From Dehalococcoides sp. (lineage in GTDB: Bacteria > Chloroflexota > Dehalococcoidia > Dehalococcoidales > RBG-16-60-22): a DNA stretch of 9,927 nucleotides. This document shows, piece after piece, positions 108 through 8,854 of this stretch. Positions within the stretch are counted from its first letter, which is position 1. Each line of letters starts with the position of its first letter. The position numbers were made by a program, and so were the translations under genes. The notes below the pieces were generated by a model that saw nothing but the letters and a program-made list of their open reading frames with translations, had not been told where the DNA came from and did not search any database. Where the stretch lies: NCBI GenBank assembly GCA_030665795.1, contig DAOUZD010000014.1:1-9927 (forward strand), in the 5' to 3' direction.

Positions 108-320
108 ATGAGACTAAGAAAAGGAGTGCTAAGGAGTTTCAATTCCGGTAACTATACCGCCACGGTCCAGCTTGCCGGCAGTTATAAGGTTTATCTGGAA
201 GATATTACCGTAGCCAGGAACCTGCCTCTGGCTGAGATGATTGTGGGCAGAAAGGTGGCCGTTATCTTCTTTGATGAGTATAATCCCAAGGAAGCAGTGG
301 TATTGGCAGTTTATACCTAG
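108..320 (+). CDS. Small beta-rich protein of unknown function (70 aa)
   Basis: I do not recognise this gene. It has a strong ribosome binding site (AAAGGAGG, 92-99) eight bases before the ATG and a TAG stop, so it appears complete. The protein has no signal peptide or membrane segment. It consists of alternating hydrophobic stretches consistent with five or six short beta strands (residues 5-11, 15-22, 25-30, 32-36, 47-55, 63-69), compatible with a small barrel, possibly OB-like; this fold is inference only. Residues 47-54 (GRKVAVIF) and 62-68 (EAVVLAV) are the most hydrophobic. It runs convergently with the signal peptidase gene, with only 29 bases between the stop codons, and is the sole plus-strand gene in the left 9 kb. 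Its link with the surface-protein locus is unknown. Confidence 0.75.
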   Translation: MRLRKGVLRSFNSGNYTATVQLAGSYKVYLEDITVARNLPLAEMIVGRKVAVIFFDEYNPKEAVVLAVYT

Positions 321-349: not shown

Positions 350-1285
350 TTACCCTGCCCCGAATATGTCCTGCCTGGCAATGGGCTGCTGACGATTTCT
401 GACGCACCCCGGAGGGAACTTAACCTTTTCTGCCTCAGGAATTGCTGGTTCGGCGGTTGGGGTTACCTCTTCCCTCAGCGGCATTTTCTGTTCCATTGTC
501 GCCGCAAGGCGCTCTAGAACTTTATTCTGCTCGGCGGCACCTTTTTTCAGCTCTTGGGATGCCTCACTGAGGCCTTGGATGGCGCTGGTGTGGCTCTTGA
601 GGTGTTCAGCATACTCGGCTATGGCGGTGGCGAAGCTGCTTAGCGCTTGCTGGGTGTGTTCCATTACCTTTTCCGTGTTGTCCATCCTATGGACCAGTGT
701 TTGGCTACCACGTTGGCTTTCCTCAATGACCGGGGCAAATATTCCCCGGTGCACCTTCTGTCCGCCCCGGCTAAGGTCATTAGCGTAGAGATATAAGGCA
801 AAAAGACTCAGCGCGATAATGACGAAGATTAACCCCTGCTGGCTCTGGAGGAAAAGAAACGGGAAGCCGAGAAAGGGGATTTGTTGACTGACGGTACCCC
901 TCAAGTCATTGGCTCGCACCGTGAACGGGTCTTCCCCGGCATTGTCGCCCTTGGTGCGCCAGGCGATGCCAAACTCGGTATCGCGCACCTCGATTACCCT
1001 GTGGGCGACTACTGGTGGGTAATTGTAATAATCCTGAATCGCGGACGGGACATTGTAGACGATAATATCGCCCTTTTTGACATCAGCCGCTGCTTTTTCT
1101 TCAATCACGATTAGATTACCGGCGTGGAGTTCTGGCTCCATACTGGTGCCGAAAACGGGCATAAACGGCATGACGCCCCGTACTGCCATGAAGCCGATGA
1201 GGCATACCGCGACGATGACCATAAGTGTCAGCGCTCGTTTCCTTTTGCTCAATATGGTTAAGATATGTATCAGCGCCTGTTTCAT
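350..1285 (-). CDS. SipW/Sec11-type signal peptidase I with cytoplasmic coiled-coil extension
   Basis: This is a membrane serine protease that removes signal peptides. TM1 is at about residues 19-39, after the basic stretch KRKR (14-17). The catalytic Ser48 lies in GTSMEP. The general base is His95 in VVAHRVIEV, where ordinary bacterial enzymes have Lys, and Asp114 lies in TKGDN. This Ser/His layout is that of Bacillus SipW and archaeal/eukaryotic Sec11. TM2 spans about 151-168. Beyond it are some 140 residues predicted to be cytoplasmic: a helical region (196-265, TEKVMEHTQQALSSF onward) likely to form a coiled coil, then a Pro/Glu-rich linker and a tail containing FPPGC. SipW-class enzymes normally end soon after TM2, so the extension is unusual. 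The ATG has a weak AAAGGCAG site. The gene has its own Pho-box-like promoter (1331-1392). It follows four proteins with SipW-type signal peptides, its likely substrates (inference). Confidence 0.9.
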   Translation of the reverse strand: MKQALIHILTILSKRKRALTLMVIVAVCLIGFMAVRGVMPFMPVFGTSMEPELHAGNLIVIEEKAAADVKKGDIIVYNVPSAIQDYYNYPPVVAHRVIEVRDTEFGIAWRTKGDNAGEDPFTVRANDLRGTVSQQIPFLGFPFLFLQSQQGLIFVIIALSLFALYLYANDLSRGGQKVHRGIFAPVIEESQRGSQTLVHRMDNTEKVMEHTQQALSSFATAIAEYAEHLKSHTSAIQGLSEASQELKKGAAEQNKVLERLAATMEQKMPLREEVTPTAEPAIPEAEKVKFPPGCVRNRQQPIARQDIFGAG

Positions 1286-1330
1286 TTTGCTGCCTTTGCT
1301 TTATACATTCTGTCTTAAATGTAGCATAGA

Positions 1331-1392
1331 AACATAAAGAAGGGCGTAAAAAAAATAAAGATTTCATAAAGGTTATGTTAAGGTTTCGTAAA
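1331..1392 (-). promoter_or_regulatory. Pho-box-like promoter of the signal peptidase gene
   Basis: On the minus strand there are four half-sites in an 11-bp rhythm: TTTACG (1385-1390), TTAACA (about 1374-1379, here TTAACAT), TTTATG (1363-1368) and TTTATT (1354-1359). The last half-site occupies the -35 position and is followed, after exactly 17 bases, by a -10-like TATGTT (1331-1336). Tandem 11-bp half-sites replacing the -35 are the known layout of PhoB/PhoP-type activated promoters; TTAACA-like half-sites are the Bacillus PhoP form. The start codon lies about 45 bases below the -10. The element begins just 8 bases after the stop of the preceding gene, with no terminator between. The same sequence is present at 6839-6893. 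Confidence 0.7.
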
Positions 1393-1396
1393 TAAG
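1342..1396. repeat. Direct repeat, copy 1 of a 55-bp regulatory segment
   Basis: Aligning this segment to 6839-6893 without gaps gives 50 identities in 55 positions; the differences are at 1346, 1354, 1366, 1375 and 1393. Both copies are in the same orientation and both lie upstream of a minus-strand gene, 57 and 64 bases from the start codon. Similarity stops on both sides, which suggests a conserved regulatory unit rather than a duplicated gene edge. Confidence 0.9.
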
Positions 1397-1403
1397 TGCG
1401 CTC

Positions 1404-2441
1404 TTACCGCTGGGTAGCTTCGCAGTATAGCTCCGGAGTTACCGTATAGTCTGCTTCCCATTCCATTGGCTCTCGGGAAACAAGCTGGTAGGTACCGCCG
1501 TTAACGGAAAGAGTGTAGCTGCCCCCGCTGATACCCACCAGGTTAAAGGTAGCCACGCCATCCTTTAGGGTCATTAGCCGGTAGTTGGGCGTTTTACCGG
1601 CCTCCACCGAGCCCTCTAGGTATAGCTCCATGGTGAGATTACCGTAAGCCTTCAGTAAGGAATCGGTATTGGTCAGGTAGACTCTCACCTGCAGGTTGCC
1701 GCTGTAGCCGGCATCTGGGGTAACTTCAAACAGGTCATCGGTTGGCGTGTTGCCGGTCAACGGCGGGGCATCGAAGCTGACCTCGGTATAGACCTGGGTG
1801 CATAGTGAATCTATGCCCACGCCTGCCTCTCTCATGCCCAAACCTATCTGCAAAGCATCGATTTGATTCCAGGTCCAGGGGTTGCTGGTCTGGGGATTAT
1901 TGTTCCATGCATTGGAGTAGGTAGCGTAGCTGGTGGTCAGATTTTCCGAGGTACCGTTGTGTGAAGCGCCGTTGGTCTTGATGAGGGTGTAAGCACTGAG
2001 TTTCGTTGCGTTAGCTGTTGCTCTACATACCATGTAAACCTCAGCATAGTTTATGTCACCGCCCGCCGTCTGTGTGGAGTGGTCAGGGATATGATATAAA
2101 TCCTCCTCCCAGCCGAGTGAGGGGGTGTAAATGTAGGTGCTATCACCATCAGAGGATATGTCGTCCACTTTGTCCCAGTGGTCCCCAGAAGCTGGATACT
2201 GGTATTTAATATTGGTCACATCGCCAATGGCATTTGGTCGGTAGGTTATCTCATCCGTCACCGGTGTCAGTACTGAATCCCAGTCAGGCTGGGTGGCGGT
2301 GGCATTAACCGTAGCTATGTCCCCGGTTGGTGCCGTAATGCCAATCGTCCATATCGCCGTGGTGTAGCTATAAGCATATATCCCACCACTAACTATTAAA
2401 ACGAGCCCTAAAGCGGCTAGTAGATAGAACTTCTTTGTCAT
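1404..2441 (-). CDS. Secreted TasA-like surface protein with N-proximal lectin-like domain (345 aa)
   Basis: A SipW-type signal peptide (basic TKK, hydrophobic 5-18, GGIYA then Y24) predicts cleavage after Ala23. The mature start (TIGITAPTGDIAT) matches the other three paralogues. Residues about 67-222 form a beta-rich lectin- or jelly-roll-like domain beginning YRPNAIGD and containing HWDKVD, NPWTW, IDALQIG and CTQVYTEV. The same domain occurs at 228-388 of the 644-aa neighbour. The shared family core follows (235-345): DLFEVTPDAGYSGNLQVRVY, LTLKDG-type strand, GGSYTLSVNGGTYQL and the terminal YCEATQR. There is no C-terminal membrane anchor or LPXTG motif, so it is probably released or polymerised. 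The ribosome binding site AAGGAAG is close to the ATG. It lies 51 bases after the previous gene and is probably cotranscribed. Function as a matrix or fibre subunit is inference. Confidence 0.85.
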   Translation of the reverse strand: MTKKFYLLAALGLVLIVSGGIYAYSYTTAIWTIGITAPTGDIATVNATATQPDWDSVLTPVTDEITYRPNAIGDVTNIKYQYPASGDHWDKVDDISSDGDSTYIYTPSLGWEEDLYHIPDHSTQTAGGDINYAEVYMVCRATANATKLSAYTLIKTNGASHNGTSENLTTSYATYSNAWNNNPQTSNPWTWNQIDALQIGLGMREAGVGIDSLCTQVYTEVSFDAPPLTGNTPTDDLFEVTPDAGYSGNLQVRVYLTNTDSLLKAYGNLTMELYLEGSVEAGKTPNYRLMTLKDGVATFNLVGISGGSYTLSVNGGTYQLVSREPMEWEADYTVTPELYCEATQR

Positions 2442-2492
2442 GCTTCCTTACCACCGCGATGTCTTGCCTTAGCTTTCCGGTTGGTTATCCCG

Positions 2493-4427
2493 TCACCTTT
2501 GGGTAGCCTCGCAGTAGAACTCTGGAGTCGTCGTCCATCCCGCCGCCCACTCTGAGGTATTATCGGAAATCAGACAGTAACCGCCGCCGGTAACTTCCAC
2601 GGTGAAAGCCACCAGAGCGACGGTATAGGTGATGGTAATATCGCTCAGTTTCGGTGTGTTAGTGCCCGGACCGGAGAAGTATGCCTTGTACTGAATCCAG
2701 CGGTCACCATCATGCACGGAGTTAATCGCCGTGCCGCTGGTGGTGTAGTAGTCAGTCGTCCCGGTAGGCCCATACCAGGCGGCTAGGTTAAGCCCTCCTT
2801 CAGTTGCCGCTGACCTTAGCTGAAACTTGATATCCGTCGCTGATGGCTCATTTATGGTAAAGGAGATCGTATCCCAGTCCCAGTTACCGTAATCCCCACC
2901 ATCATGGGTAGAGGAAGTCAGGTCGCCCGAGGTATAGTATGTCGAAAAGTAAACCCTTATCTCGTCCAGCACCGGGGTATCGGTTCCGTCAGAGGTAAAT
3001 TCCATATGGTAATAGAAGTTGGCCCCGGACCAGCCCAGGCCGGAAAGACTGATGTTATCCGTTCCCTGAGACATCGTGTCCCAGCCATTGAGCGTGCCTG
3101 ACGAGTTGTACCAGCTGGTGTTATCGGTGGAAAATTGGACTTTCAAGCCGGTTCCGGAAGGAATCGCCGAGGCATCGTAGTAAAAATCGTCGATGCTGGC
3201 CACGGTCTCACCGGATAGCAGATTAACGGAAGTAATGGTTCCCGGCGAGTTGTAAGTTATCTGGGTGTAGTTAATCTCGGCATAGACCTGGGTCATGCGC
3301 GTGTTTCGTGTTGTCAAACCTCCTCCCGATTTGCACCTTCTGAGCCCGGCACCGATTTGCAGAGCATCTATTTCACTCCAGGTCCAGGGGTTACCGGTTT
3401 GCGGGTTGTCATTCCACTGATAGGAATAGGTGGCATAGCCGGTGGTTACCTGCTCCTCAGTCCCGTTATATGTTGCACCATTGGTCTTGATGTGGACATA
3501 ACCCGAAGGTTGCGCCGGCGTACCCATGGCTTTAACCACCATATAAACCTTAACATAATTTATCGTGCCCGAACCGGTAGAGTGGTTGGCGGTGTTATAT
3601 AAATCCTCCTGCCAGTCAAAATAATTAGTTTGAACATAGGTGGTATCATTATCAGATACAGCTTCATCCACTTTATCCCAGTGGGCCCCCGAATCTGGAA
3701 ACTGTTCTAGAATGCCGGTCTCATCACCGGCGGCATTCGGTCTCAGGGTCTCGTTGTCGGAGGCGCCAGGCGCGTAGGTAAGTTTGGCTTGACCACCGCT
3801 AACGGTAACATTGGTGGAAGCGGCAATCTTGGTCTCATCATTAAAGCTATCGGTGACAGTATCGGTAAACTTATCTAGGAGGACATCGCCGGGGCTGGTC
3901 GTTGTATCAAGATTAGTTAGGCTGCCACCCTCGAAGTCAGACTGGGTCGTTTGGACCCAGCTTTTTGCCGTAGATTTGAGACCGGTCAGGGAAAAGTTAG
4001 ACTGTCCATTTTGCAGGGTGAGCAGGCGATAGTTGGGTGTCTCATTCGCCGAAGCCGAGCCCTCAAGGTATAACTTCATATTGAGGTACTTGTAGGCTTT
4101 GGTCAGGTTGCCGGCGTTGGTCAGGTAGACCCCAACTTGCAGGTCACCGGTATAGGCGGCGTTAGGGGTTATATCAAACAGGTCACCGGTGGGCACTTCT
4201 CCGCAGGTGGTGTTTTCGGATAGATTATCGGTAACTGAACTCCAGTCAGGCTGGCTGGCAGCAGTGTTACTGGTGGCAACATCTGCCGTGGGCGCGTCAA
4301 CATTAATTATTCCTACCGCAGTGGCATAGGTGTAAGCAAATGCCCCGCCGCTGATTATCAGGACGAGCGCCAAAGCAACAATTAGATAAAATTTCTTTTT
4401 TGCGTTTCCTTCCCACTGCTTTATCAT
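2493..4427 (-). CDS. Large TasA-like surface protein with core domain split by a ~450-residue insertion (644 aa)
   Basis: The signal peptide has a longer n-region than its paralogues (MIKQWEGNAKKK), a hydrophobic stretch 14-26 and GGAFA followed by Y32, so cleavage after Ala31 is predicted. The family core begins at 80 (TGDLFDITPNAAYTGDLQV, then VYLTN and LLTLQNGQSNF) but breaks off at about 150. It resumes at about 604 (VAFTVEVTGGGYCL) and ends in EFYCEATQR. The insertion contains a spacer (151-227), a lectin-like domain (228-388: LRPNAAGDETG, HWDKVD, NPWTW, IDALQIG, TQVYAEI) and two tandem beta-sandwich-like repeats (about 393-497 and 498-603), each ending in a TPxLxxIxxxY strand. The ATG lacks a good ribosome binding site. 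It begins 26 bases after the 175-aa gene, which suggests cotranscription and perhaps coupling. A displayed sugar-binding subunit is plausible but unproven. Confidence 0.85.
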   Translation of the reverse strand: MIKQWEGNAKKKFYLIVALALVLIISGGAFAYTYATAVGIINVDAPTADVATSNTAASQPDWSSVTDNLSENTTCGEVPTGDLFDITPNAAYTGDLQVGVYLTNAGNLTKAYKYLNMKLYLEGSASANETPNYRLLTLQNGQSNFSLTGLKSTAKSWVQTTQSDFEGGSLTNLDTTTSPGDVLLDKFTDTVTDSFNDETKIAASTNVTVSGGQAKLTYAPGASDNETLRPNAAGDETGILEQFPDSGAHWDKVDEAVSDNDTTYVQTNYFDWQEDLYNTANHSTGSGTINYVKVYMVVKAMGTPAQPSGYVHIKTNGATYNGTEEQVTTGYATYSYQWNDNPQTGNPWTWSEIDALQIGAGLRRCKSGGGLTTRNTRMTQVYAEINYTQITYNSPGTITSVNLLSGETVASIDDFYYDASAIPSGTGLKVQFSTDNTSWYNSSGTLNGWDTMSQGTDNISLSGLGWSGANFYYHMEFTSDGTDTPVLDEIRVYFSTYYTSGDLTSSTHDGGDYGNWDWDTISFTINEPSATDIKFQLRSAATEGGLNLAAWYGPTGTTDYYTTSGTAINSVHDGDRWIQYKAYFSGPGTNTPKLSDITITYTVALVAFTVEVTGGGYCLISDNTSEWAAGWTTTPEFYCEATQR

Positions 4428-4453
4428 TCACTCATTTTTAAGTTGTTCTTGGA

Positions 4454-4981
4454 TTACCTCTGCGTAACCTCGCACCATACCTGTGGCTGGTAACTGCCAC
4501 CGGTCAATGTCTTAAACGGGTGCATGCGGAAGCTACCCCCGACAATGTCCACCGAGAACGGACTGGTACCATTGCCGCTGGTCCAGGTAAACAAGACCTG
4601 AGCATTTTGCAGACTGAGGACCTGGGATTCCGACTGTTCATCTGCCATGGCACCGGTATTGTCTGTATACCGAAGTTCCATGTTGAGGTGGTGGTACTGC
4701 CGAATCAGCTCCCCGGAATTGACTAGATAGACACTTATCACCAGGTCACCGGTGTAGCTTGCGTCCGGGGTTACGGTAAATAGTTTGCTTGTTGGCCAGG
4801 TGCCGGTGAATTTCCCGAAGACGGTCGGTGCCGTGATACTGCTGTTTGCCGTGATATTGGCGAAGTCTGATGTTGGCGCGGTGACGCCAATGGTTGCTGT
4901 CGCCGTGGTGAAGGTATAGGCAAACATGCCGCCAGTAACTGCCAGTAGTGCTATTAAACCGATGAGTAGAAATTTTTTCAC
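4454..4981 (-). CDS. Small TasA-like secreted protein (175 aa), likely major subunit type
   Basis: This is the simplest family member: a signal peptide plus the core domain only. MKKFLLIGLIALLAVTGGMFA is followed by Y22, with predicted cleavage after Ala21. The mature start TIGVTAPTSDFANIT is the clearest form of the segment shared by all four. The core covers 66-175 (KLFTVTPDASYTGDLVISVY, LSLQNAQVLF, VDIVGGSF) and ends in VWCEVTQR. Cys170 in that last strand is the only cysteine in the protein. Translation starts at GTG with GGAGGG (4987-4992) six bases upstream; no in-frame ATG fits. The gene heads a probable three-gene transcript with the 644- and 345-aa genes, driven by the promoter at 5075-5103. 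Its length and make-up resemble TasA/camelysin-like matrix proteins (family knowledge); polymerisation is inference. Confidence 0.87.
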   Translation of the reverse strand: MKKFLLIGLIALLAVTGGMFAYTFTTATATIGVTAPTSDFANITANSSITAPTVFGKFTGTWPTSKLFTVTPDASYTGDLVISVYLVNSGELIRQYHHLNMELRYTDNTGAMADEQSESQVLSLQNAQVLFTWTSGNGTSPFSVDIVGGSFRMHPFKTLTGGSYQPQVWCEVTQR

Positions 4982-5001
4982 TTTTACCCTCCGCTTTTAC
5001 T

Positions 5002-5023
5002 GACAAATGGTTTCTTATTTGCC
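5002..5023 (-). other. Small 5'-UTR hairpin before the 175-aa gene
   Basis: GGCAAAT (5017-5023, minus strand) can pair with ATTTGTC (5002-5008) around an 8-base loop, with one G-U pair. The hairpin sits directly upstream of the ribosome binding site in the roughly 85-base leader. It may protect the mRNA end or tune translation. It is short and A/U-rich, so this is only a weak prediction. Confidence 0.3.
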
Positions 5024-5074
5024 AGAATATTACCTCTTGTCACCTTTTTTATCAACTATTAGGCTTTTGCTAAT

Positions 5075-5103
5075 ATTATACACCTAATCTTGACTGAGTG
5101 GTA
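5075..5103 (-). promoter_or_regulatory. Promoter of the 175/644/345-aa gene group
   Basis: On the minus strand a consensus -10 TATAAT (5075-5080) lies 17 bases after TACCAC (5098-5103), which occupies the -35 position. TACCAC is a poor -35 and is at the same time one arm of an inverted repeat (5098-5143). This suggests an activator-dependent promoter. The predicted transcript has a leader of about 85 bases before the GTG of the 175-aa gene. Confidence 0.6.
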
Positions 5104-5143
5104 GTACTTCCTTGTTTTGCTCCTTTTCTTATATCGCTACCAC
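5098..5143. repeat. Inverted repeat GTGGTAG/CTACCAC, copy B, overlapping the -35
   Basis: GTGGTAG (5098-5104) and CTACCAC (5137-5143) are perfect 7-base arms with centres 39 bases apart. A closely similar pair lies at 5894-5938 upstream of the 191-aa gene. On the minus strand the sequence between the arms is also partly alike (AAAA, GAGC and GGAAG at similar spacing). It may be a two-site operator for a DNA-binding dimer or an RNA hairpin; its coincidence with promoter hexamers in both copies favours DNA binding. Confidence 0.55.
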
Positions 5144-5190
5144 CTTTCTCGTTTGCCCTGCTTTCTCAATCACCCCTTGGCTCTGAGCAT

Positions 5191-5220
5191 ACGGGGCTGC
5201 CTTGAGTAAGACAACCCCGT
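5191..5220 (-). terminator. Strong hairpin after the 191-aa gene (terminator-like, no U-tract)
   Basis: Two 11-base arms (5191-5201 and 5210-5220) pair fully, with two G-U pairs, around an 8-base loop; the outer six pairs are ACGGGG/CCCCGT. It starts 20 bases after the stop codon of the 191-aa gene on the minus strand. No run of T follows, so it may be a rho-assisted terminator or a 3'-end stabilising hairpin rather than a classical intrinsic terminator. It separates the 191-aa gene from the next promoter. Confidence 0.6.
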
Positions 5221-5239
5221 TTACTAGACCCGGCTATTT

Positions 5240-5815
5240 TTACAAGCCAGCCTGGAGCACTTCGGCGGTGATTGACGGGACATATGAACCCCCACTGCCG
5301 GTTAAGTATAACCAGGGGTATGTTCGGTAGACCCCACCGGTCATCTGAATATAGTAGGTAGTCAGAGGGGTCAGACCGTCGCAAGTGAAGCTAACCACGC
5401 CGTTGTGCAGGGTGAGTGGTTTGGTGAGATTCTCCACATCCACCGTGTTGTTGCCGCTGTCCACAATGCGCACCCGCATCAGTAAAAGTCCGTATTTGTA
5501 GCTCAGCTGGTCAAGGTTGTCAAGGTAGACATTCACCTGAAGGTCACCTGAATAGTTGGCGCTTGGACTTATATTGAACAGGTTGCCTTGGGGTATTTTG
5601 CCCCGGTAGCTTCCAAGAACGGGATAATTAGGAACAGTATTACTGACCGTAACATTGGCGAAGTCAGATGAAATAGAAACGGCGCCAAGGGTAGTTGTCT
5701 GTGTGGTGTAGGCATAGGCAAACAAGCCACCGGTAACTGCCAGCGCCGCTACCAAAGCGCCGATAAAATAGCGCCTCAGTGCGCTTCCGCCAGCTCCTTT
5801 AATTATTGCACTCAT
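5240..5815 (-). CDS. Divergent TasA-like secreted protein (191 aa)
   Basis: The signal peptide has a longer n-region (MSAIIKGAGGSALRR), a hydrophobic segment 16-28 and GGLFA then Y34, with predicted cleavage after Ala33. The mature start (TTLGAVSISSDFANVT) matches the family pattern. The core runs from about 76 (QGNLFNISPSANYSGDLQVNVY) through LTLHNGVVSF and MTGGVYRTYPW. The last strand reads SITAEVLQAGL: the Glu and Gln of the EATQ ending are kept, but the Cys and the Thr-Gln-Arg end are lost. It may therefore be a minor, capping or anchoring subunit, comparable in role to TapA (speculation). A strong AGGAGG (5825-5830) lies 9 bases before the ATG. It has its own promoter (5872-5899) and is separated from the downstream genes by the hairpin at 5191-5220. 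Confidence 0.85.
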   Translation of the reverse strand: MSAIIKGAGGSALRRYFIGALVAALAVTGGLFAYAYTTQTTTLGAVSISSDFANVTVSNTVPNYPVLGSYRGKIPQGNLFNISPSANYSGDLQVNVYLDNLDQLSYKYGLLLMRVRIVDSGNNTVDVENLTKPLTLHNGVVSFTCDGLTPLTTYYIQMTGGVYRTYPWLYLTGSGGSYVPSITAEVLQAGL

Positions 5816-5989: not shown

Positions 5990-6775
5990 TTAACTTGTTT
6001 CCCCGATAAGCGACTTAAAGCGTTCCTTTAAACTTTCTTTGAAAGCGTCGAATTCTTCTTTGGTTATATACTCGGCGGCTGGCTTACCGCTGAAGCTGAC
6101 CCTTGACATTGAGGGCAGACCACTTTGCGTTGCCTCAATCAGCATCTGCTTCTGGTCATTAGCCACCATCTTATGCCGTACCGCCCCGAGTCTATGGCTG
6201 ATAACCCCTTCACTCATGCCTAGCGTCCCGGCCACCTGCTCTTTCGAGTTTCCATCAGCAATGTGGCGCAAAATCTCGGTTTCGCGGGGAGTAAGGTGGG
6301 CCAGCAGGTCAGACACTTGTTTCCCTATTGAGGAGAAAACTTCAAATTCGGCCAGAACCCGGGAAGCAATTTCCGGTCTCAAGAGGGCTTCACTTATCGG
6401 TTGACTGCCTTGAACCACCGCCCGGATGGTATTGACCACAACCTCCGGGTCAATGTCCTTGCTCAGGCAGGCACTCGCCCCGCTCTTCATGGCGGCGAAA
6501 AGTTGCTCATCATTGTCGCTATCCATGATTAAAATCACCGAAACTTCGGGCAGGTTCTGCTTGATGCGGCGCGTTGCCTCAACACCACTGAGCTTATCAT
6601 GGTTGGCATTGAGAATAGCCACCTGCGGCGGGTTTGTTTCAATAAAAGCTAGCGCCTGTTCATTCCCGGTCTCTTCACCAATAACTTCCATATCTTCCTC
6701 ACCAGATAAAGTAAAGTGTATACCTTCTCGGAAAAGCACTTGCCAGTCGGCCAGAAAGACACTAACCTTTTCCAT
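5990..6775 (-). CDS. NarL/LuxR-type atypical response regulator lacking the phospho-acceptor Asp
   Basis: This is a DNA-binding transcription regulator. The N-terminal receiver (about 4-122) has the NarL pattern (LFREG at 14-18, GASACLSKD at 99-107), but Asn56 replaces the phosphorylated Asp in VAILNANHDKLSG. Trp11 replaces one of the two acidic pocket residues and Met84 the conserved Thr/Ser; Asp10 and Lys106 remain. A linker (about 123-158) leads to a LuxR helix-turn-helix (161-215: LTPRETEILRHIADG, then recognition helix about 188-203). A 45-residue tail ends in a charged helix (238-256). Loss of phosphorylation residues marks atypical regulators that respond to ligands, protein partners or abundance instead (family knowledge). 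The ribosome binding site is AAAGGAG (6782-6788). It is placed between the kinase/regulator pair and the surface genes and is driven by a Pho-box-like promoter, so it is a likely local regulator (inference). Confidence 0.9.
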   Translation of the reverse strand: MEKVSVFLADWQVLFREGIHFTLSGEEDMEVIGEETGNEQALAFIETNPPQVAILNANHDKLSGVEATRRIKQNLPEVSVILIMDSDNDEQLFAAMKSGASACLSKDIDPEVVVNTIRAVVQGSQPISEALLRPEIASRVLAEFEVFSSIGKQVSDLLAHLTPRETEILRHIADGNSKEQVAGTLGMSEGVISHRLGAVRHKMVANDQKQMLIEATQSGLPSMSRVSFSGKPAAEYITKEEFDAFKESLKERFKSLIGETS

Positions 6776-6966: not shown

Positions 6967-7659
6967 TTAGGTTGGCCTCATAAACTTATAGCCCATCCCG
7001 TGCTCGGTGACAATAATGCTGGGTGACTCGACGCTATCCCCCAGCTTCTGCCTCAGATGCTGAATATGTACCCTGAGCAGGTCTCTGGCGTCCCGGTACG
7101 CTTCCCCGCACGCTTTGGATAACAGGTTTTCGTGGGTCAGTAACCGCCCTTCGTTCTTGATTAGGTGGTAGAGCAATTTATATTCCGTAGAGGTGAGCTT
7201 TACCGGCTTTCCGTCTACGGTAATCTCATTGCGGGCGAAATCGACCCGTAGTTTGCCACTGGCAAAAGGCGGTTCTTCAGCGGTAGCTGACAACCCTCGG
7301 GCACGGCGCAGCACCGCCTGTATCCGGGCTATCAGTTCAATATGGCTGAAGGGCTTGGTTACATAATCGTCTGCCCCCAGCTCAAGCCCTCGGGCAATAT
7401 CGGTATCTTCACTTTTAACGGTTAGCATGACCACCGGCACTTGGGAGAAGCGCCGTATCTCGCGGAGAACTTGGAAGCCATCCATATCAGGTAGCCCTAT
7501 ATCCAGAATAACCAGCTCGGGGTTCTCGCTCTCGATAAGGGATAGTCCTTTCGCCCCGTCGTTGGCTGGAATCACCTCAGTACCGCTCCAGCGCAGCTGG
7601 AAACACAGTGAGACAACCTCTATAATCTCGGGAGAATCGTCAATTACGACTACTTTCAT
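6967..7659 (-). CDS. OmpR/KdpE-family response regulator
   Basis: This is a two-component transcription factor. The receiver (1-118) has Asp7/Asp8, phospho-acceptor Asp53 (VILDIGLPDMDG), Thr80 and Lys102 (DYVTKPF), so it is complete and should be phosphorylatable. The C-terminal winged helix (about 135-228) has the OmpR/PhoB pattern: LTSTEYKLLYHLIKNEGRLL, then RDARDLLRVHIQHLRQKLGD and a final GMGYKF hairpin. At 230 aa it has normal length. The family binds 11-bp direct repeats as tandem dimers. Such repeats occur directly downstream (6849-6892) and again before the signal peptidase gene. It follows the histidine kinase gene by 36 bases, so they are a likely cognate pair in one transcript. The ribosome binding site is weak (AAGG). 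KdpE-like by overall look, but no kdp genes are here. Confidence 0.93.
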   Translation of the reverse strand: MKVVVIDDSPEIIEVVSLCFQLRWSGTEVIPANDGAKGLSLIESENPELVILDIGLPDMDGFQVLREIRRFSQVPVVMLTVKSEDTDIARGLELGADDYVTKPFSHIELIARIQAVLRRARGLSATAEEPPFASGKLRVDFARNEITVDGKPVKLTSTEYKLLYHLIKNEGRLLTHENLLSKACGEAYRDARDLLRVHIQHLRQKLGDSVESPSIIVTEHGMGYKFMRPT

Positions 7660-7695: not shown

Positions 7696-8406
7696 TTACA
7701 GGGGCAGGGAGAAGAAGAAGTGGCTGCCTTGCCCCGAGCCACTCTCTAGCCAAATATTACCGCCGTGAAGCTCAACCAATAATTTGGTGATGGCTAATCC
7801 CAACCCGCTACCTCTGCCACCATTGACCTGGTAATAAGGCTGAAATATTAGCTCTTGCTTATCCGCCGGGATACCCATCCCGTTGTCAGCTACCTCAATT
7901 ACCAGGCTCTTGTCATTTTGTGAGGCACTGACGGTTATCTTACCTCCTTCCGGAGTGAATTTGCTGGCATTGGTGAGCAGATTTAGCAGAATCTGCTCCA
8001 GATACTGACGGTGTGACTTGACCGGAGGTAGCGACGCCGGTAACTCCACGGCCAGGGATTGCTTTTTGCTTTGCATGATTGGGTAGAGCTGTGCCGTCAC
8101 ACCATGGATGACCGGCTCAATTTCAATTTGCTCTGGTTGAAACGAGAAATCCCCCGCTAGTAATCCGGCCATTTCGGAGAAATTGGTTAGCTTCTCATCT
8201 AAGCTGTGGGCATTTCGGATAATGTTCTGCGTCAATCTTAGGGACATGCTTTTTGGGTACATCTGAAGCTCATCAGACAGAAGCTCCGCAGAAACAATAA
8301 TGGCCGTGAGTAAGGTCTTAAGCTCATGAACGGTAGCATCCCCAAAGCCTATTCTCTTTTCGTCTTGTTCTGTTATTTGGTCGGTATTTTGCTTCAGGTT
8401 CTGCAT
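7696..8406 (-). CDS. Soluble sensor-less histidine kinase (HisKA + HATPase)
   Basis: This is the kinase partner of the adjacent OmpR-type regulator. The HisKA dimerisation helix has phospho-acceptor His27 in VHELKTLLTAI (the usual Pro after the HELKT motif is Leu). The ATPase domain has the N-box Asn146 (LLNLLTNASKFTPEGG), G1 box DNGMGIP (174-180) and G2 box GRGSGLGLAITK (197-208). At 236 aa it lacks any membrane segment, PAS, GAF or HAMP domain. Only about 20 residues precede the HisKA domain, so the signal must come through a partner protein or the kinase core itself. The ATG (8404-8406) has no clear Shine-Dalgarno, and an in-frame TAA lies two codons upstream, so no longer start is possible. 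Weak initiation may keep its level low. It follows the XRE gene by 52 bases, probably in the same transcript. Confidence 0.93.
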   Translation of the reverse strand: MQNLKQNTDQITEQDEKRIGFGDATVHELKTLLTAIIVSAELLSDELQMYPKSMSLRLTQNIIRNAHSLDEKLTNFSEMAGLLAGDFSFQPEQIEIEPVIHGVTAQLYPIMQSKKQSLAVELPASLPPVKSHRQYLEQILLNLLTNASKFTPEGGKITVSASQNDKSLVIEVADNGMGIPADKQELIFQPYYQVNGGRGSGLGLAITKLLVELHGGNIWLESGSGQGSHFFFSLPL

Positions 8407-8458: not shown

Positions 8459-8854
8459 CTAGTCAATTCCTTTAGTCATCGCTTTGGCGACAATCTTTAG
8501 CGTGTTGAGGATGCCAATCACGGCGCGCTGTACTTCAACCGGCTCCTCAGCCAGCATATTGGCCACATAGGGGTCCAAGCGCCGGCTGCCATAGCCTGCA
8601 CCGCTCTCTTCAGCAACGCCGGGAGTTTGGGGGGACAGGAAACCAGCCAGAGTGAATAGCTCATCCTCATCAAAGCCCAGAGGCTTGGCAATTCTCCGCA
8701 GAATATGGGCTGATGGGAAGCGCTCGCCTCGCTCAATGCGACCCAGATGGGATGATGATACCCCTGAAGTGGTCGAAAGCTCCTGGAGAGTCAGCGGTAC
8801 CGCAATCCTTTGCTGCTTGAGTATTCGGCCTAGATTATTATCATTTCGTACCAT
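8459..8854 (-). CDS. XRE-family transcriptional regulator
   Basis: This is a 131-aa DNA-binding protein. A Cro/cI-type helix-turn-helix fills residues 9-63 (LGRILKQQR, TLQELSTTSGVSSSHLGRIERGERFPS, HILRRIAKPLGF). A Gly/Ser-rich linker (72-90) joins it to a C-terminal helical segment (92-125: DPYVANMLAEEPVEVQRAVIGIL) that may dimerise or bind a partner. AAGGAGTG precedes the ATG. It is the first gene of the presumed xre-kinase-regulator transcript. An 18-bp near-palindrome lies exactly between its own -35 and -10 (8884-8901), so negative autoregulation is likely. Because the kinase has no sensor domain, this protein could be the input that sets expression of the whole module; that is inference. 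Confidence 0.9.
   Translation of the reverse strand: MVRNDNNLGRILKQQRIAVPLTLQELSTTSGVSSSHLGRIERGERFPSAHILRRIAKPLGFDEDELFTLAGFLSPQTPGVAEESGAGYGSRRLDPYVANMLAEEPVEVQRAVIGILNTLKIVAKAMTKGID

Follow-up and report, generated by a model that had tools for sequence, protein, structure and literature searches.

In TasA polymers, the subunits are connected by an N-terminal donor strand (PMC9674648), and the archaeal bundling pilus protein AbpA, which has been termed TasA-like (PMC9674648), also forms a donor-strand pilus (PMC9715654). Cannulae are hollow protein tubes, of about 25 nm, of heat-loving archaea, and Ca2+/Mg2+ induces their polymerisation. In the cannulae of Pyrodictium abyssi, which have the subunits CanA, CanB and CanC, an extended N-terminus touches other protomers (PMC12326000). 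Cannulae have been called exclusive to the Pyrodictiaceae (PMC13140500), and PMC12326000 reports no significant sequence homology of CanA beyond P. abyssi, save for possible cannula genes in P. occultum. The locus described here was found in a 9,927-nt stretch (the window) of contig DAOUZD010000014.1 from a Dehalococcoides sp., where the genes for four secreted proteins (subunits 1 to 4, of 191, 175, 644 and 345 aa) and a SipW-class signal peptidase span 350..5815. The operon probably makes an extracellular donor-strand surface polymer of cannula-fold subunits that are served by their own peptidase.

An earlier note on this DNA had described a TasA-SipW-like fibre or matrix system, with four consecutive secreted proteins that carry GG-x-aromatic-A/Y signal peptides and share one core domain, followed by a Ser/His signal peptidase. 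The gene content was confirmed. On the minus strand the order is Xre regulator, histidine kinase, OmpR-type and then LuxR-type response regulator, the four secreted proteins, and the peptidase, which matched TIGR02228 with 86.9 bits (cut-off 51.85). The signal peptides of subunits 1 to 4 end in GGLFAY, GGMFAY, GGAFAY and GGIYAY, respectively, and all four proteins carry the C-terminal E-x-x-Q motif (EVLQAGL, CEVTQR, CEATQR and CEATQR), as had been stated. Of the four, just subunits 1 and 2 have the common mature D-F-A motif in exact form; it reads D-V-A and D-I-A in the larger pair. The core hidden Markov model matched all four subunits, although in the 644- and 345-aa proteins the match was split by inserted domains. 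BLASTP analysis matched the 175-aa protein with the 191-aa (E = 3e-38) and 644-aa (E = 1e-27) proteins, and the 345-aa protein with the 644-aa protein (E = 2e-53). By these sequence comparisons the four secreted proteins are paralogues, far beyond chance.

The interpretation in the earlier note was partly supported. In a Foldseek search with the AlphaFold2 model of the 175-aa subunit the closest folds were polymer subunits; the best match was to the archaeal cannula family, and no TasA chain was present among the best 50 matches listed, an absence that is compatible with a TasA fold. CanA and CanX of P. abyssi and the Hyper2 tube protein (PDB 7uii, 9dlo, 9hdi, 9h8b, 9bab) have the same core fold as the subunits. 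Other likenesses to the cannula proteins are a profile similarity that extends along the mature protein, a short mature N-terminal segment, and several paralogous subunits of differing size. In contrast to the cannula system, this locus is bacterial, has a dedicated SipW-class peptidase and regulators adjoining, and includes two subunits with inserted jelly-roll domains.

Relatives were listed as the best 120 of 272, 58 of 58 and, for the 644-aa protein, the best 120 of 283 matches. Alignment A2 comprised 79 rows, 77 of them from 178 listed relatives after removal of sequences shorter than 161 aa (P0177, P0178) or at least 85% identical to one that was kept; A3 was built from 59 of the 120 relatives listed for the 644-aa protein, and A4 was a hand-picked set (n = 28). 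When the PDB was searched by sequence, CanA was the sole match of A2 at E≤10 (E = 0.32); with A4, CanA was first (E = 0.023) and CanX fourth (E = 1.1) of nine. Alignment of A4 with the cannula set using hhalign gave a score of 33.75 (Prob 61), compared to 10.8 for the reversed profile, 21.2 for the best of 199 shuffles, and 13.6 and 12.4 for two unrelated domains. With mature parts only, the cannula score was 32.1 and the best of 200 shuffles 19.4. By predicted fold and by sequence the core is nearest to CanA/CanX and the Hyper2 tube protein, with support for sequence homology that is moderate because of the Prob of 61. The DUF1102 family (PF06510), considered as a link to Hyper2, matched in none of seven genomes, and the control genomes were also without an over-cut-off match.

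One alternative is a true TasA-SipW biofilm fibre, in which divergent TasA/camelysin homologues would form a thin single-start fibre; the earlier note had proposed a homologous or convergent biofilm/fibre locus. Like TasA/CalY-SipW of Bacillus, this locus pairs its subunits with a signal peptidase of the Ser/His class and has TasA-type signal peptides and, probably, a donor-strand principle, and AbpA (PDB 7ueg) was ranked sixth by Foldseek for the 175-aa model (E = 6.7e-3). The comparisons with TasA itself nevertheless make this explanation very improbable. At E≤1 neither PF12389 nor NF046066 matched any of the four subunits, whereas TasA scored 84.9 and 513.8 bits, respectively. The SipW-dependent signal model TIGR04088 (cut-off 19) gave no match for the 175-, 191- and 345-aa proteins at E≤10 or for the 644-aa protein at E≤1, compared to 38.0 bits for TasA; among 31 genomes of the family it matched only G652, G667 and G669, and none of the 17 with subunits. 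The mature subunits aligned to the TasA family with an hhalign score of 12.7, inside the shuffle range (best of 200, 16.7), and to a single TasA with Prob 0.2. With the signals left in, A4 scored 34.5 (Prob 49, a score without shuffle control) against TasA plus two Chloroflexota TasA-type proteins. Since removal of the signals lowered the score to 12.7, the likeness to the TasA family lies in the signal region. The contrast between the cannula and TasA profiles is good but not final, because each set held only three sequences, those of the cannula set partial. Homology through the terminal strand was considered and rejected: E-A-T-Q equals the FEATQ of TasA, but only 14 columns align there, at chance level. 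A4 also had a weak match (E = 2e-4), over its first 96 positions, to a TasA-type gene in G652 that is truncated, and Pfam and NCBIfam recognised no TapA-like gene in the window.

The short mature N-terminal segment had been put forward as a donor strand. In the 175-aa family (44 rows), residues 22-43 had a conservation of 0.89, compared to 0.81 for the signal, 0.78 for residues 44-66 and 0.79 for the core; the same residues had the lowest model confidence, with pLDDT near 50. A strand that becomes ordered only within an adjoining subunit would be expected to show this combination, from alignment and model, but it is not proof; the function proposed for the segment stays putative. In the suggested mechanism, the subunits would be exported by Sec, and the adjoining peptidase would cut the GG-x-aromatic-A signal, freeing the conserved segment of about 20 residues. 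The freed segment would then exit its own subunit and complete the jelly roll of the next by donor-strand exchange, so that a surface filament or tube results. In this scheme, the 175- and 191-aa proteins would make up the bulk of the polymer. The 345- and 644-aa proteins, which have the same fold, would be minor components that expose phage/carbohydrate-binding-like jelly-roll domains on its surface, and the operon would be switched by the regulator block. That the polymer is a hollow tube is possible, but doubtful.

Jelly rolls with carbohydrate-binding-like inserts are frequent in non-polymeric surface proteins, and S-layers are present in Dehalococcoidia (PMC10284905). The subunits could accordingly form no filament at all and make up an S-layer-like lattice, or serve as secreted or surface adhesins. 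This alternative is improbable, given that all four proteins share only the small signal-segment-core unit, that no other mature part is as conserved as the N-terminal segment, which the model leaves unplaced, that the nearest folds are polymer subunits, and that SipW-class genes adjoin the subunit genes.

To the extent that organism names were given, the listed relatives were from Dehalococcoidales, Dehalococcoidia or Chloroflexota, or carried only the name "subsurface metagenome", in agreement with the earlier placement of the system outside Firmicutes and probably in Chloroflexota. In a set of genomes centred on G003, the core profile matched 17 of the 31 genomes of the family and 27 of 156 of the order, which judging from source names is Dehalococcoidales. 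A narrower profile matched four of 294 genomes drawn from the class, and G003 alone was found among 400 in a phylum-wide search; the class and phylum figures are lower bounds, as both were samples in which a limited number of candidates was scored.

TIGR02228 was over cut-off in 15 of the 31 family genomes, and 12 of these also had subunits. The last subunit gene is immediately followed by the peptidase gene in 11 of these 12; in the twelfth, G004, the two lie on separate contigs, each of which breaks off at that point. The gene order sought in Dehalococcoidia genomes was thus present in several, and neighbouring peptidase and subunit genes were also found at a distance of about 0.65 kb in G273 and G039 and of 10-136 bp in G732, G707 and G722. 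Fisher tests of the association between subunits and peptidase gave P = 0.011 for any over-cut-off form and P = 0.0007 for the long form, with unaligned peptidases classed as long by their frame length and with the qualification that related genomes are not independent. Five subunit genomes had no over-cut-off peptidase: in G002 and G660 the locus is at a contig end, and G654, G655 and G656 have only a short orphan class. Conversely, G652, G667 and G669 had a peptidase and no subunits; their short peptidases adjoin TIGR04088 proteins, two of which belong to the camelysin family by Pfam, the third being cut by a contig end. Homologues consistently lacking a SipW-class peptidase were therefore not what was found, although the divergent orphan class does lack one.

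Two observations weigh against a peptidase-matured donor-strand polymer. The orphan subunits lie amid histidine kinase and response regulator genes, with no recognised SipW in the stretch read, and over all 79 rows of A2 the conservation contrast was smaller (0.67 for the N-terminal segment, 0.62 for the core and 0.71 for the signal). In the orphan proteins, of 172-178 aa (L032:5583-6101, L035:1729-2262, L038:1383-1919), a PWP(V/I)A-type signal takes the place of GG.

In the peptidase, Ser48, His95 and Asp114 are conserved in the alignment; the Bacillus SipW equivalog NF046067 cut-off was missed (59.2 of 190 bits). The protein carries a conserved coiled-coil-like C-terminal extension of about 145 aa, probably cytoplasmic, which the short TasA-linked peptidases of sister genomes do not have. 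The long forms have in common the three catalytic residues and the extension segment YAxHLxSHTxAIxGL...ELKxGAxEQN, with PPGC near the end in most rows. Bacillus SipW was reportedly called bifunctional in the title of a 2012 paper (Terra, cited in PMC4551309), and by analogy a regulatory role for the extension is a fair guess. One long-form peptidase, in the metagenome-derived genome G669 (L098:5354-6304), has Ala at the catalytic Ser position and no recognised subunit beside it.

The two larger subunits have in common a domain A of about 165 aa, at different positions of the core. In the 644-aa subunit the core is broken later than in the 345-aa protein, by domain A plus a further region B of about 210 aa; from the alignment ranges, region B and residues ~187-216 appear to form a jelly roll that encloses domain A. 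The inserted jelly-roll domains are probably displayed for binding. Domain A matches phage families, and a gene-transfer-agent-like phage-capsid module borders the operon in eight loci, the window included. The subunits could thus be tail or fibre parts of that module; this is extremely improbable, however, as the module is convergent to the operon, did not appear in those stretches of G707, G722, G273 and G039 that were read, and has a capsid gene that also occurs without subunits in 9 of 21 capsid-positive family genomes, and as the subunits carry signal peptides and come with a dedicated peptidase. Other subunits have other inserts (L034:8786-9604 in G039; P0248), namely a phage-tail-like stretch, with matches to PF09343 and PF03906 that stayed below cut-off, and DUF2341, which passed its cut-off with 93.1 bits. 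Precursors of the first subunit with ~65 extra residues before the signal peptide were observed at L030:3201-3962, L031:3745-4527, L103:1906-2646, L104:2322-3122 and L107:5317-6057. In G251 these residues resemble ThiS (Pfam E = 0.021, below cut-off); no such match was found in the extra residues of the other four.

This conserved cluster, in which genes for cannula-like secreted subunits adjoin their own peptidase and regulators, points to archaea-like surface filaments in some bacteria. The order Dehalococcoidales has been reported to have lost peptidoglycan synthesis (PMC10284905), and because of that loss such a polymer would presumably fit its envelope. The fullest form of the proposal, which is no better than tentative, is that Dehalococcoidia with little peptidoglycan make hollow protein tubes that are cannula-like and share ancestry with those of Pyrodictium. 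A dedicated SipW-class peptidase would mature the tube proteins, its coiled-coil extension in the cytoplasm would link processing with regulation or anchoring, and subunits with phage-like binding domains would decorate the tubes. If true, such a bacterial relative, with its linked peptidase, would bridge the export logics of cannulae and of TasA-type systems, and would provide a non-hyperthermophile system for studying what cannulae do as well as a new self-assembling protein material. No literature joining cannulae to Chloroflexota was found; the main cannula cryo-EM account was outside the coverage and may already mention bacterial relatives. The features of the locus are given in the table.

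Table. Features of the locus and its regulators (positions in the window)
Feature	Position	Strand	Basis
Subunit 1, 191 aa: undivided core preceded by GG-x-F-A-Y signal peptide and N-terminal segment	5240..5815	-	BLASTP, core HMM
Subunit 2, 175 aa: minimal subunit; AlphaFold2 model resembles cannula proteins	4454..4981	-	
Subunit 2 signal peptide, residues 1-21, ...VTGGMFA; putative cleavage site	4919..4981	-	Sequence; alignment A2
Subunit 2 putative donor segment, residues 22-43	4853..4918	-	Conservation and low model confidence
Subunit 3, 644 aa: inserted domains interrupt core	2493..4427	-	
Subunit 3 inserted domain A, residues 223-387, jelly-roll; match to PHROG 6368 (unknown function)	3267..3761	-	
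Subunit 3 inserted region B, residues 393-602	2622..3251	-	
Subunit 4, 345 aa: N-terminal segment, then domain A, then core	1404..2441	-	
Subunit 4 inserted domain A, residues 61-228, between N-terminal segment and core	1758..2261	-	
SipW-class signal peptidase, 311 aa, Ser48/His95/Asp114; two predicted membrane spans flank catalytic part	350..1285	-	TIGR02228, alignment
Peptidase C-terminal extension, residues 166-311	353..790	-	Alignment
LuxR-type response regulator, immediately upstream of subunit genes	5990..6775	-	
OmpR-type response regulator	6967..7659	-	
Histidine kinase; no sensor domain predicted by Pfam	7696..8406	-	
Xre-type HTH regulator	8459..8854	-	

The upstream regulators were identical in kind in most loci whose contig extends that far. 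An Rfam search gave no match, and promoter and terminator scans gave counts no higher than the shuffle level.

The phage head module converges on the peptidase gene in the window (108-320, plus strand) and in L036, L030, L099, L104, L105, L112 and L113. Its content is a portal (phrog_64), a scaffold (phrog_1793), a major head protein (phrog_212), an SU10-type adaptor (PF24175), a LamG protein, a 668-aa tail-like protein and a 70-aa end gene, the last found in the window and seven genomes. The head gene and the peptidase gene are on one contig, about 5 kb apart, in nine genomes. Of the 31 family genomes, 21 have one copy of the head gene, with 75-100% identity in 20, and the module looks like a vertically inherited gene-transfer-agent-like element.

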